From positions 1 through 44,040 of the forward strand of contig JASHNX010000037.1 of the NCBI GenBank assembly GCA_030041415.1: a DNA stretch of 44,040 bases, in the 5' to 3' direction. This document shows, one piece after another, positions 8,846 through 14,888 of the stretch. The notes under the pieces were generated by a model. The model worked only from the letters and a program-made list of their open reading frames with translations, searched no databases and was not told where the DNA came from. A program made the translations under genes and the position numbers. This DNA comes from Candidatus Sulfotelmatobacter sp. (GTDB taxonomy: Bacteria > Acidobacteriota > Terriglobia > Terriglobales > Acidobacteriaceae). Each line of letters begins with the position of its first letter. The first letter of the stretch is position 1.

Positions 8846-9925
8846 CTAGACCGCCACAAAATCCTTGCCGGTCGGCGTCAATATTTCGCAGCCGTTGGCC
8901 GTAACGGCTACCATGTCCTCGATTCGAATGCCCCATTCGCCGGGGAAGTATATGCCAGGCTCGATCGTGATGACCATTCCCGGGTTCAGAACTTCGGTTT
9001 GCGCGGCGGCGACCCGGGGCGGTTCATGGATCTCCAAACCCACGCCGTGGCCCGTGGAATGCGTAAAATAACGGCCAAAACCTGACTTGGCAAGGACTTT
9101 CCGCGCGGCAGAATCAACATCCCCGACGGTGATTCCGGACCGAACGGCTGCGATTGCGGCTTCCTGCGCCGTCTTGACCGCATAATAGGCGCTTCGCGCC
9201 TTATCCAACTCGAGTCCGACCCATACAGTACGAGTCTGGTCCGAACAATAACCATTCAGTATAACACCGAAATCGCAGACCACGAACCCGCCGGGCGCGA
9301 TGCATTGTTCGCTCGCCCTGCCATGCGGCAACGCCGACCTCGCGCCGGACGCGATGATAGTTGGGAACGACATACCCTCGGCCCCTGCTCGTCGAGCCTG
9401 ATACTCCATTTCAGCTGCCACCTCAACTTCTTTGACTCCGGGCTTGATCACTTCCAGTGCCCGGTCGAATAAACTGGCTCCCAGTTGCACCGCCGATCTA
9501 ATACACTGCAGCTCTTCTTTATCTTTCACCATACGTGCGCGCTCGACGAATGGAGGCGCGTTGAGCAAGCGCAAGCCTGACGGCAGCAGGTCGAGCAGGC
9601 GCTTTCTTTCCGCCACAGTGAGATGCTCGGCTTCGATTCCAAGTTTCCAGCGCTTGTGATGATGGCCAATCCAATCGCCAATGGCTTTCAATACCGCGTT
9701 TCGGGCAATGATGACTTTGGCGCCCTTCACCTGCTCCTGCGCCTGCCGCCGATACCGTGAATCGGTGAAGAAAACTTTTTCACGTTCCGAGACCAATAAA
9801 AAACCGGCGCTGCCAGTAAATCCACACAGATAGCGGATATTGGGCAGATGGCTAACCAGGATGGCATCGATCTTGGATTCGCTTAGCTGTTGACGCAGAT
9901 TCTTCTGGCGAAGAGAGAAGTTCAT
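8846..9925 (-). CDS. pepP: M24 family Xaa-Pro aminopeptidase
   Basis: 359 residues, typical of the shorter Xaa-Pro dipeptidase/aminopeptidase group. The N-terminal creatinase-like domain (about 1-125) contains the sequence IRYLCGFTGSAGFLLV. The C-terminal pita-bread domain carries all five dimetal ligands in order: the Asp of CDFGVILNGYCSD and its second Asp, the His of STGHGVGLEIHE, the Glu of TIEPGIYFPG and the Glu of IRIEDM. It should therefore be an active Mn/Co-dependent cytoplasmic peptidase that removes residues before proline. It is 105 bases upstream of accB on the same strand, possibly one transcript. The symbol is used in the general sense; it could equally be named a proline dipeptidase. 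Confidence 0.9.
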   Translation of the reverse strand: MNFSLRQKNLRQQLSESKIDAILVSHLPNIRYLCGFTGSAGFLLVSEREKVFFTDSRYRRQAQEQVKGAKVIIARNAVLKAIGDWIGHHHKRWKLGIEAEHLTVAERKRLLDLLPSGLRLLNAPPFVERARMVKDKEELQCIRSAVQLGASLFDRALEVIKPGVKEVEVAAEMEYQARRAGAEGMSFPTIIASGARSALPHGRASEQCIAPGGFVVCDFGVILNGYCSDQTRTVWVGLELDKARSAYYAVKTAQEAAIAAVRSGITVGDVDSAARKVLAKSGFGRYFTHSTGHGVGLEIHEPPRVAAAQTEVLNPGMVITIEPGIYFPGEWGIRIEDMVAVTANGCEILTPTGKDFVAV

Positions 9926-10029
9926 TTCTGCGAGTTTAGCAAAACTAAGGGAGGCTACCGTAAACGCAATACCTTCGGAATCTCAATCGCTATGATGCGA
10001 ACGTCGGTCGCGACTACTTCGACGCAGTG

Positions 10030-10054
10030 TTGACCACAGATGAGCAGCTATAAT
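10030..10054 (+). promoter_or_regulatory. uvrB: Weak candidate promoter for uvrB
   Basis: A perfect TATAAT at 10049-10054 lies 81 bases upstream of the uvrB start. The nearest -35-like hexamer, TTGACC (10030-10035), is only 13 bases away, so the pair is not a good sigma-70 promoter. No recognisable LexA box was seen in the 210-base gap between the divergent aminopeptidase and uvrB. Confidence 0.3.
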
Positions 10055-10135
10055 AGAGAGATTCACTTTCGTTGAAAGTCCCGTCTGAGAGGTACCGGAC
10101 ACATTCTCGATCTTCCATACGGGATTCGTTTTGCT

Positions 10136-12127
10136 ATGGATTTCAAACTCGTATCTAACTAGAAGCCGCAGGGCGATCAGAAAGCGGCGATCGAATCGCT
10201 GAAGCGCGGCGTCTTCGATCGCGAGCAGCATCAGGTTCTGCTCGGCGTTACCGGATCGGGCAAGACCTATACGATGGCAAAAGTGATCGAGGCTGTGAAC
10301 CGGCCCACGCTGGTGATGGCACACAATAAGACCCTCGCCGCGCAGCTTTATCACGAATTCAAAAATTTCTTTCCGAACAACGCGGTCGAGTATTTCGTTT
10401 CCTATTACGACTACTATCAACCCGAAGCCTACGTACCCGCCGCCGATCTTTACATCGAAAAAGAAGCCACAATCAACGACGAACTCGACAAGCTGCGGCT
10501 TTCGGCCACGCGCTCTCTATTCGAGCGCCGCGACGCGCTGATCGTCGCTTCTGTCAGCGCCATCTATGGTCTCGGCTCTCCCGAAGCCTATTACGGCATG
10601 ATGCTCTTCCTCGAGAAGGGCCAGAAGATCGCTCGGGAAGACATTACTCGCAAGCTCGTCGACATTCTTTACGAGCGCACCAATGGTGAATTTCGCCGCG
10701 GCACCTACCGCGTGCGCGGAGATGTCATTGAAGTTTTCCCCACCTACGACGACATGGCCTACCGCATCGAGCTGTGGGGGGATCAGGTCGAGTCCCTTTC
10801 GCAAATCGATCCGCTCTTTGGCACGGTCAAGCAGAAATACATGCGTCTGCCGATTTATCCGAAGACGCATTACGTCATGAAAGACGAAACTCGCGCCAAC
10901 GCCGTTGAATCGATCAAGAAAGAACTCGCGTGGTGGGAAGTGGAACTCGAAAAGCAGGGCCGCATGGTCGAGTCGCAACGCGTTCATCAGCGCGTAAAGT
11001 TCGATCTTGAAATGATCAAAGTGATGGGCTACTGCCACGGGATCGAAAATTATTCGCGGCATTTTACGGGACGCATGCCGGGCGAACCTCCTCCAACCCT
11101 GCTCGATTACTTTCCGCGCGATTATGTGATGTTCGTCGACGAATCGCACCAGACCGTTCCGCAGTTGCGCGGCATGTATCACGGCGACCGCTCCCGCAAA
11201 GAGGTTCTGGTCGAATACGGATTTCGTTTGCCTTCTGCGCTCGATAATCGTCCGCTGACGTTCGAAGAGTTCGAGCACCGTACGAATCAACTGGTTTACG
11301 TTTCGGCGACACCGGGGCCGTATGAGCTTACGAAATCGGCAGGTGTAGTGGTCGAACAGATTATCCGTCCCACGGGATTAATCGATCCCGAAGTCGAAGT
11401 GCGTCCGGTCAAAGGACAGATCGACGACCTCCTGCACGAAATTCGAAATCGCGTGGCGAAAGGCGAACGCGTGCTCGTGACGACTTTGACTAAGCGCATG
11501 GCCGAGGATTTGGCTGAATACTATGCCGAAGTTGGCGTGAAGTGCCGTTACATGCACTCGGAAATTGAAACGCTCGAACGCGTCAAGATTCTTCGCGATC
11601 TTCGCAAAGGAGAGTTTGATGTTTTGATCGGCATCAATCTTCTGCGTGAAGGGCTCGACCTGCCCGAAGTCTCGCTGGTCGCGATTCTTGACGCCGATAA
11701 AGAGGGTTTCTTGCGCTCGCAAGGATCGTTGATTCAGACCATCGGCCGCTGTGCGCGCCATCTCAACGGCCGCGCCATTCTCTACGCCGACCGCATGACC
11801 GATTCGATGAAGCAAGCCATGGATGAAACCCTCCGCCGCCGCGCCATTCAATCCGCATATAACGAAGCGAACGGCATTACGCCCGAATCCATCGTGCGCC
11901 CGCTCGATATGACGCTGGCTGGAATCGTGGCGGCAGATTACGCAGATCTAACCGCAGCTGAGCCTGACGGTGTGCCGGAATTCAAATCCCAGGAAGAACT
12001 CGATGCCTACATCGCAAAACTCGAAACCGACATGCGCGAAGCCGCCAAGCAGTTCGAGTTCGAGAAGGCAGCGAAGTTGCGGGATGCGATCAAGGAGTTA
12101 AGAACGAAAGAGTTTTTATTCGCCTGA
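10136..12127 (+). CDS. uvrB: UvrABC excision nuclease subunit B, interrupted by an in-frame TAG at codon 9
   Basis: UvrB verifies DNA damage and loads UvrC in nucleotide excision repair. From the ATG at 10136 the frame gives 663 coded positions, the normal UvrB length: MDFKLVSN, stop, [13 protein letters not shown], then Walker A GVTGSGKT (37-44), the beta-hairpin region [12 protein letters not shown], helicase motifs including DESH and the [18 protein letters not shown] segment, and a C-terminal UVR motif. Codon 9, where the family has an aromatic residue in YxPxGDQ, is TAG. The next ATG (10274) starts at residue 47, after Walker A, and the product would lack ATPase activity. No ATG, GTG or TTG lies between the TAG and Walker A. 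Everything after codon 9 looks under normal selection, so either the mutation is recent, the base is a sequence error, or the TAG is read through or bypassed from CTG. Confidence 0.93.
10160..10162 (+). other. uvrB: In-frame amber codon in uvrB
   Basis: TAG in frame with both the conserved N-terminal MDFKLVSN and the following KPQGDQ. A single change from TAC (Tyr, third base C to G) would explain it, because the family consensus here is Tyr or Phe. Confidence 0.9.
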
Positions 12128-12374: not shown

Positions 12375-13805
12375 ATGCGAATTAAATTTTCAGCTGTTCT
12401 CTTGCTCATTCTCTTTCTCGTCGCTGCGGCGTCGGCCCAGTCGACTGTGCCCTCGCTCAATGAGATTTTTGCTTTTCCCTGCGCGTCGTTTACCTGTCCG
12501 GATGGCTACTTTCCCGTCGAGTTGATCGAAGGCGCTAACGGCAATTTCTACGGTTCGGCTGTGGGCGGCGGAACAGGAACAAATGCACAAGGCACTATTT
12601 TCGAAATCACTCCCGCAGGTCAAATCTCGGTGATCTACAGTTTTGCCGAAGAGTCAGATGGCAGCCTGCCGAACGGCTCCGCTCCCGGCGCACTGGTCGA
12701 AGGCATGGACGGTTTCCTCTACGGCATCACTTCCGAGAACGGCGCCAACGGCTTCGGCACGATTTTCAAGCTGAGCAAGAGCGGCACAATTCAGGTGCTG
12801 CACAACTTCTGCAGTACATTGACCTGTTCCGACGGCGCCAATCCCAGTTTCTTGATGCAGGCGATCGACGGCAATTTCTACGGCGCAACCGGACCTACTG
12901 ATTATCCGACCAGCGTGCTTTTTCGCATGACGCCCTCGGGCACCTACACCGTCCTTCACACTTTCGATAGCAAAACTCAGCCCGATGGCACCGGCGTCTA
13001 TGGTATGGTGCAGGCCTCCGATGGCAATCTCTATGGAACCACCGTCGCCGGCGCGCAGTTCAAGCCATACAACAGTTTTTTTCGCTTCGATCCGGCGACC
13101 GGTATATACGAAATCCTTCACGGCTTCAACACGTCCAACATCAATCTTCCCGGCGTCGCCACTAGCGCTCCGGTGTTAACTTCAAGCGGCGAGTTTTTCG
13201 GTCTTCAGGCGTTTTCCACTCTTTATAAAGTCGGCCCGACTGGCGCGTATGAAAAGCTTGGTTCTCTTTCATCCACGCAATTTTTCGATGGCAATATCCT
13301 CCAGGCTTCCGACGGTAATCTATGGGGCAACTTCGATGGCGGCACCTGCGGCACACCTGAAGGAATTGCCTTCTCCGCGAGCACGAGCGGCGCACTTTTG
13401 CAGAGCTTGACCTTCAATTGCATGACGGTGGGTGAACAATTGGGAGCGATGCTCCAGGCCGCCAATGGCAGCTTTTACGGCGTCACTCTGGGCAATGGAG
13501 GTGTAAACGACAATCCTATCGATAACGGCACCATCTGGAGCCTCGACGCCGGATTGCCCGCGCCCTCTCCTGGCATAACCGCATTCCTTCCGACTTCCGG
13601 CCAAACTGGTGCGCACCTACTCGTGCAAGGCAATCATTTCGTTGGCACGACTGCAGTCACCATGAACGGCGTGAGCGCAAACTTCGAGGTGTTGAGCGTA
13701 AATTACATTCGCCTGACCGTACCCTCTGGCGCAACAACCGGGCCTATCTCCGTCAGCAACGCGGGTGGCACCGTCAAGAGCGAGAAGGCATTCACGATTG
13801 AATAG
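12375..13805 (+). CDS. Secreted GloVer-type tandem repeat protein with C-terminal IPT/TIG domain
   Basis: 476 residues. A signal peptide (about 1-22, ending SAQ) is followed by at least seven repeats of about 35-60 residues, each with a core such as GNFYGxxxGG, GTIFxxTPxG and VLHxFxxxxDGxxP. This is the pattern of the GloVer-containing tandem repeats (TIGR03803-like), which probably form a beta-propeller. The last 85 residues (PGITAFLPTSGQTGAHLLVQG onward) are an IPT/TIG immunoglobulin-like domain. It is exported, probably cell-surface or extracellular; the ligand is unknown. Such proteins are abundant in Acidobacteriota and Verrucomicrobiota. It is convergent with the CheR gene at 13821, only 15 bases apart, and preceded by a 247-base gap after uvrB in which no clear promoter was found. 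Confidence 0.85.
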   Translation: MRIKFSAVLLLILFLVAAASAQSTVPSLNEIFAFPCASFTCPDGYFPVELIEGANGNFYGSAVGGGTGTNAQGTIFEITPAGQISVIYSFAEESDGSLPNGSAPGALVEGMDGFLYGITSENGANGFGTIFKLSKSGTIQVLHNFCSTLTCSDGANPSFLMQAIDGNFYGATGPTDYPTSVLFRMTPSGTYTVLHTFDSKTQPDGTGVYGMVQASDGNLYGTTVAGAQFKPYNSFFRFDPATGIYEILHGFNTSNINLPGVATSAPVLTSSGEFFGLQAFSTLYKVGPTGAYEKLGSLSSTQFFDGNILQASDGNLWGNFDGGTCGTPEGIAFSASTSGALLQSLTFNCMTVGEQLGAMLQAANGSFYGVTLGNGGVNDNPIDNGTIWSLDAGLPAPSPGITAFLPTSGQTGAHLLVQGNHFVGTTAVTMNGVSANFEVLSVNYIRLTVPSGATTGPISVSNAGGTVKSEKAFTIE

Positions 13806-13820
13806 CAATCGACTAAGACA

Positions 13821-14888
13821 CTACCTTCCGTACGCCGCGCTGGCGGCCAGCGGCTTGCGGTGAAACGTATAGCCATCGAAGGTTTCCGAGCGGAAATTCA
13901 GATTTGAGCTGGCTAGTTTTTCCGTCTGGCTGAGAAAGAGATACCCTCCCGGCTCCAGATACAGATGCAGGCGCTCCAGCAAGGCGATACGCTGGGCGCG
14001 GGAAAAATGCGGTAGCACATCCATGCAGAAAATCACGTCGAAACGGCCGATGTAACCAGGGCGGGCAAGGTTCATGCAGTTGAACGTCACCAGGCTGCGC
14101 AGGCGAGGTTTCACCAATAAATGAGTGCAGCTTACCCGGGAGGCCTGGGAAGCGATCGCGTCCCCATTTCTTGAAACCCTTTCGGTTTCGCCTTCTGCGC
14201 ACAAAACCGAGGGCGAAGAAATCTTGGAAAAATAATTTCGGATACTGGCTGGGGGCAGACCGTCCAGCGCGGACTGCGGATAAACGCCGCGATCGGCGGC
14301 TTCGATATTGCGCGGAAGTAAATCGCTGCCGACAATGTGCAGCGAGAACACAGGCTTCACGCCAGTGGAATTGTTTACATTGTCGGCGATGCCTCCGCTG
14401 CGCCCAGTCTTACCATTGCCGTTTCCGTTGCCCGACGGCGTGGTAATGTTTGCCGGAGCACTTCCCCCCTGGCTCAGGCCGTCGCAGACGGCCATCGCAA
14501 TCGAATACGCTTCTTCTCCAGTGGAGCATCCGGCGCTCCAGATGCGCAGCGGACTGGGACCATCCACCGACTTGCGCGCGCAAAGTTGCGGGACGACCTG
14601 CCGCGCCAAAGCATTCAGCGCCCCGGGATGGCGATAAAATCCAGTGGTCGCATTAATCAGGCCATCCAGCAGAGACGACCAATTCGCGGGATCCTGATCT
14701 TGAGAGCGGAGGCGCTCGAACAGAACAGCTGACGATCCGAGATCCTGGACTTCGATGTAATCGGAAACGTGCGCGATCAACTGGCTATTGGGGCAATCGA
14801 GAACTACCCCGGTTTGCCGCTCCACCAGCAGGCGCAACTCGGAGAGTTCGTGTTCGAGGATCGTGCTGGTTGCCATTAGCTTGTGCAT
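13821..14888 (-). CDS. CheR-family methyltransferase with low-complexity inserts
   Basis: 355 residues. The N-terminal all-alpha CheR_N domain (about 10-80, LRLLVERQTGVVLDCPN) precedes the SAM-binding domain with motif I RIWSAGCSTGEEAYSIAM, then DLLPRNIEAADRGVYPQSALDGLP and a late IFCMDVLPHFSRAQRIALLERL. CheR methylates glutamates of chemoreceptors with S-adenosylmethionine. Two insertions set it apart from the 303-residue CheR at 29026: a Gly/Asn/Ser-rich stretch of about 35 residues after motif I, and about 40 residues before the FNCMNL strand. No receptor, CheA or CheB is adjacent; the upstream genes are an orphan DHp protein and two unknown proteins. It may methylate a receptor encoded elsewhere. 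The start is the first ATG (14888); an alternative is 14876. Confidence 0.87.
   Translation of the reverse strand: MHKLMATSTILEHELSELRLLVERQTGVVLDCPNSQLIAHVSDYIEVQDLGSSAVLFERLRSQDQDPANWSSLLDGLINATTGFYRHPGALNALARQVVPQLCARKSVDGPSPLRIWSAGCSTGEEAYSIAMAVCDGLSQGGSAPANITTPSGNGNGNGKTGRSGGIADNVNNSTGVKPVFSLHIVGSDLLPRNIEAADRGVYPQSALDGLPPASIRNYFSKISSPSVLCAEGETERVSRNGDAIASQASRVSCTHLLVKPRLRSLVTFNCMNLARPGYIGRFDVIFCMDVLPHFSRAQRIALLERLHLYLEPGGYLFLSQTEKLASSNLNFRSETFDGYTFHRKPLAASAAYGR

Follow-up and report, generated by a model that had tools for sequence, protein, structure and literature searches.

The window analysed here, a stretch of 44,040 nucleotides, corresponds to contig C88 in a draft genome of 4.81 Mb that is split into 350 contigs; the genomes closest to it come from soil metagenomes and are assigned to Candidatus Sulfotelmatobacter or Acidobacteriaceae. 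It carries a uvrB frame with a single interruption, an in-frame TAG at codon 9, and the features of the locus are collected in Table 1.

Table 1. Features of the uvrB locus and its neighbours, in window coordinates
Feature	Position	Strand	Remark
M24 peptidase gene	8846-9925	-	neighbour of uvrB
uvrB frame	10136-12127	+	663 codons plus stop, one interruption; ATG at 10136
Codons 1-8 (MDFKLVSN), 5' of the TAG	10136-10159	+	start kept in 70 of 71 relatives
In-frame TAG, codon 9 of uvrB	10160-10162	+	Tyr in the relatives read
37 start-less codons with the KPQGDQ segment and Walker A	10163-10273	+	coding signal strongest of its kind in the sample
ATG 10274, codon 47, first standard in-frame start 3' of the TAG	10274-10276	+	
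Frame without Pfam match	12375-13805	+	neighbour of uvrB
CheR-type methyltransferase	13821-14888	-	neighbour of uvrB

Past the TAG, the frame is open from 10163 to the stop that ends at 12127. It matches the curated UvrB model NF003673 over its whole length, scoring 1051 bits with X at codon 9 and 1043 bits for the 654 residues 3' of the TAG (cut-off 743), and what it lacks is an uninterrupted run of codons from the start to Walker A. The first-pass annotation, which had reported an in-frame TAG at codon 9 of an otherwise intact uvrB, is thus confirmed. It had further stated that no standard start lies between the TAG and ATG 10274 and that initiation at this ATG would cost the P-loop, and both statements hold: the in-frame codons of this interval include no ATG, GTG or TTG, and the Walker A lysine is codon 43, four codons before codon 47, so that the product from ATG 10274 is devoid of the P-loop while still reaching 982 bits with NF003673 (cut-off 743). 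Among the near-cognate starts looked for, the interval contains only ATC 10190, CTG 10199 and CTG 10238.

In the solved UvrB chain 2fdc_A, residue 12 is the counterpart of the codon 3' of the TAG, which places the TAG at residue 11. In UvrB, Tyr11 makes contact with the ATP adenine; among the literature matches listed, no title dealt with UvrB Tyr11 or with nonsense or readthrough in uvrB. Scanning of positions 9926-10290 for promoters and terminators gave no match. By eye, a degenerate heptamer-like repeat (AAGAGCT / AACAGCT) stands directly 5' of the uvrB start in many relatives, including L035, L038, L041, L048, L050 and L053; the window does not have it.

No second copy of uvrB was found in the 350-contig assembly; the other UvrB_inter match, considered as a candidate, belongs to a frame that is truncated at a contig end and that we read as mfd. 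The partners of UvrB are represented by a UvrC match within an open frame of 646 codons and by two UvrA matches, whose frames are open over 1010 and 772 codons.

Codon 9 and constraint on the uvrB frame

In named public genomes, 80 uvrB loci were compared, in 71 of which the match starts directly after codon 9, so that this codon could be read directly. All 71 have Tyr there (TAC 65, TAT 6) and none has a stop; three further loci, in which the match begins one residue later (from residue 2), have TAC, and the remaining six start too late for the codon to be read. A second, overlapping set of whole genomes, with 29 uvrB loci of which three are too short at codon 9, gave Tyr in all 26 readable loci (25 TAC, 1 TAT). 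The comparison with close relatives that had been proposed for this codon consequently returned TAG in none of the 71 + 3 loci, and the suggestion that an aromatic residue has been replaced can be narrowed to Tyr, the residue of every relative read. An ATG or GTG occupies the place of the uvrB start in 70 of 71 relatives, the exception being L094, in which the ATG lies one codon upstream.

The rest of the frame bears the marks of a maintained gene. Relative to L033, its nearest relative (98% protein and 87% DNA identity over uvrB), the frame 3' of the TAG differs by 221 synonymous and 14 other codon changes, with 8 and 2, respectively, falling between the TAG and ATG 10274. An alignment of the window with 46 relatives, chosen from the 71 by equal ungapped length (with the omission of at least one such relative, L102), contains 416 invariant sites, and at no site invariant in all 46 relatives does the window carry a private change. 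Outside the TAG, uvrB is evidently under strong purifying selection, in line with what had been claimed for the 654 residues that follow the stop. Given the intact constraint and the lack of private changes, uvrB was functional until the very recent past or is so to this day; an old pseudogene is rejected by the same codon-difference pattern and absence of private changes.

The start-less stretch was also compared with other genes in a sample of 1.40 Mb of the genome, window included, in which 957 genes of at least 150 aa were called. In 275 of these, an upstream stop is followed by 15 or more codons without a start, and among them uvrB ranks first for the coding signal of that stretch; in an earlier scan of 547 genes, it ranked first by a similar measure among the 55 in which such a stretch, following a stop or a contig edge, comprises 25 or more codons. 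The protein-like stretch between the TAG and ATG 10274 is not due to chance.

Isolated stops in the draft genome and the probable origin of the TAG

Internal stops flanked on either side by coding signal were searched for with a recall of 67% at the threshold used (33% in a cruder first version), as simulated on the same genes that had trained the model. The matches were mostly judged by eye to be gene ends or antisense frames, the spans read being 6 of 35 in the internal-stop scan, 4 of the 38 new ones in the 957-gene scan and 12 of 19 in the first version. The scan is able to find recoded stops, since it picked out three cases of cysteine-to-TGA replacement. Clear isolated stops of the non-selenoprotein kind in conserved genes number two in 1.40 Mb, namely the uvrB TAG and a TAA in serA (phosphoglycerate dehydrogenase; L161:16447 (+), G000:C156). 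When read through the TAA, serA scores 580 bits against TIGR01327 (cut-off 454). All 29 relative serA loci were read at this codon: all 22 loci of the same genus have lysine there, and the seven more distant loci have lysine (1), proline (3), glutamine (1), aspartate (1) or arginine (1).

At a probability of roughly 0.6, we regard the uvrB TAG as a wrong base, or as a base of a minority strain that entered the consensus of a fragmented draft. A one-base flaw in the assembly would then have turned a Tyr codon into TAG, and the working uvrB of the organism would most likely keep Tyr at codon 9 and yield an ordinary full-length UvrB. That the base is wrong, or atypical of the population, we infer from Tyr in the relatives, the intact gene and the serA stop; wrong or minority bases offer the best explanation because the two stops differ and are isolated in unrelated, otherwise intact conserved genes. 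Two signs expected of an assembly error were found, a codon intact in relatives and a further isolated stop elsewhere in the draft. Assembly errors are known to cause spurious pseudogenes, as published for low coverage (Cooley and Wright, 2024; PMC11017572), and two stops in 1.40 Mb would be of the order of the published assembly-error figure, which applies to low coverage and includes frameshifts. The case described here resembles those spurious pseudogenes in that an isolated stop lies in a constrained gene of a draft with more than one such stop, and differs from them in that its cause is inferred. Against a wrong base, the uvrB frame has no other sign of error, the clear cases are only two in 1.40 Mb and were recognized mostly by coding statistics and by eye, and a real, recent nonsense mutation would give an identical sequence.

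Such a mutation, with loss of UvrB and of nucleotide excision repair in this strain, comes next in rank as a possible but unlikely alternative. Translation would stop after eight residues, and the product from ATG 10274 would lack the P-loop. This reading takes the sequence as given, agrees with the failure to find a UAG-reading tRNA and with the two open release-factor frames (see below), and predicts no further decay after a recent loss, which is what is observed; as in ordinary nonsense mutations of repair genes, one codon has become a stop and the rest is intact. It is weakened by the serA stop in the same draft, which would imply that two unrelated conserved genes were lost recently, and by the open frames of the UvrC and UvrA matches, although a very recent loss would show likewise. 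If the TAG were real and fixed, the organism would be a natural excision-repair mutant in soil or would exemplify UAG readthrough in a repair gene.

Four options had been offered by the first-pass annotation, and of these one wrong base is favoured by Tyr in all relatives, the lack of decay, the lack of a UAG-reading tRNA among those read, TAG being a common terminator and the serA stop; loss of the repair step, suppression or readthrough, and CTG initiation are each rated lower. The uvrB TAG thus most likely reflects a wrong or rare base of the draft rather than a new reading of the genetic code, and it cautions against equating an isolated stop in a conserved draft gene with gene loss or recoding before the reads have been checked.

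Decoding of UAG and alternative initiation

It is improbable that a real TAG is read through, whether with a suppressor tRNA or through leaky decoding, and that some full-length UvrB is thereby made. In natural recoding, as outlined in PMC10778597, UGA and, in rare cases, UAG or UAA specify selenocysteine, and UAG specifies pyrrolysine. The uvrB case shares with the systems described there a stop codon within a conserved frame; it departs from them in that neither a UAG-reading tRNA nor a PylS over the cut-off was found, TAG is a common terminator and the residue replaced is Tyr, not cysteine. The search for a TAG-suppressing tRNA, one of the checks proposed, was negative: none of the 44 RF00005 tRNA matches, all of which were read, has a CTA or TTA anticodon (reading UAG/UAA), and none occurs in the sampled sequence either. 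In a first look, 150 of 167 candidates were scored for RF00005 and 150 of 644 for the tRNA-Sec model, which adds one gene, with anticodon tca (C343, L310), its other 12 matches lying at places already read. With no Cys tRNA and no Ile-GAT found among the 44 matches, the draft does not hold a full set of tRNAs, and this leaves some room for readthrough, as do the constraint on the frame 3' of the TAG and the UGA recoding described below. In E. coli, TAG is read through to some degree, less than TGA (PMC11126739).

Pyrrolysine decoding is rejected, the best match to PylS (TIGR02367) reaching 21.5 bits against a cut-off of 178, and so is a readthrough-promoting RNA structure, the fold 3' of the TAG being nothing unusual (z -0.94). 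Two frames with the PCRF release-factor domain, taken for RF1 and RF2, are open (360 and 355 codons). Genes of the sample end with TAG in 305 of 957 cases (TGA 362, TAA 290), so that suppression would be costly. No second clear in-gene TAG was found in the 1.40 Mb sample, with most matches judged by eye, and no relative read has TAG at codon 9. With the UAG-reading tRNA absent among the 44 matches and TAG neither avoided as a terminator nor recurrent within genes, UAG recoding is not supported. Slimmer still is the chance that the TAG is real and fixed and that UAG is read inefficiently as an amino acid by a suppressor or allo-type tRNA missing from the draft; readthrough would in that case set the limit to repair, and UAG would be decoded alongside the recoding of UGA to selenocysteine.

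The genome recodes UGA, given the presence of SelB over the cut-off (C348) and of tRNA-Sec. Three likely selenoproteins have TGA at a cysteine position (L186:10516 (-), L169:3946 (-) and L179:2753 (-)); they are AhpC/TSA-like, CMD (AhpD-like) and DUF3179, and all three families are among the selenoproteins catalogued in PMC9312934. As a separate observation, a tRNA called Leu(taa) at L158:17602-17692 (-) (G000:C92) scores 30.6 bits as tRNA and 49 as tRNA-Sec. Judged by eye, it can fold with eight pairs in the acceptor stem and four in the T stem, in the manner of allo-tRNAs that have been described in Acidobacteria (PMC7609411). The ARAGORN drawing shows a tRNA of the ordinary type, and it would read UUA, not UAG.

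Non-AUG initiation 3' of the TAG, giving a shortened UvrB, can be set aside as the least probable reading: ATC 10190, CTG 10199 and CTG 10238 are all in frame and 5' of Walker A, but any of the three would drop the conserved KPQGDQ segment, which makes this reading less likely, and 70 of 71 relatives keep their start eight codons 5' of the Tyr codon. Elsewhere in the genome, the beginning of a ubiE/menG-like frame (L274:2506-2590 (+), G000:C98) seems to lie 26 codons 5' of the first ATG, GTG or TTG of that frame, after the stop of an aroB-like frame (both named by eye); this start-less stretch would be due either to a further wrong base or to initiation at an unusual codon.
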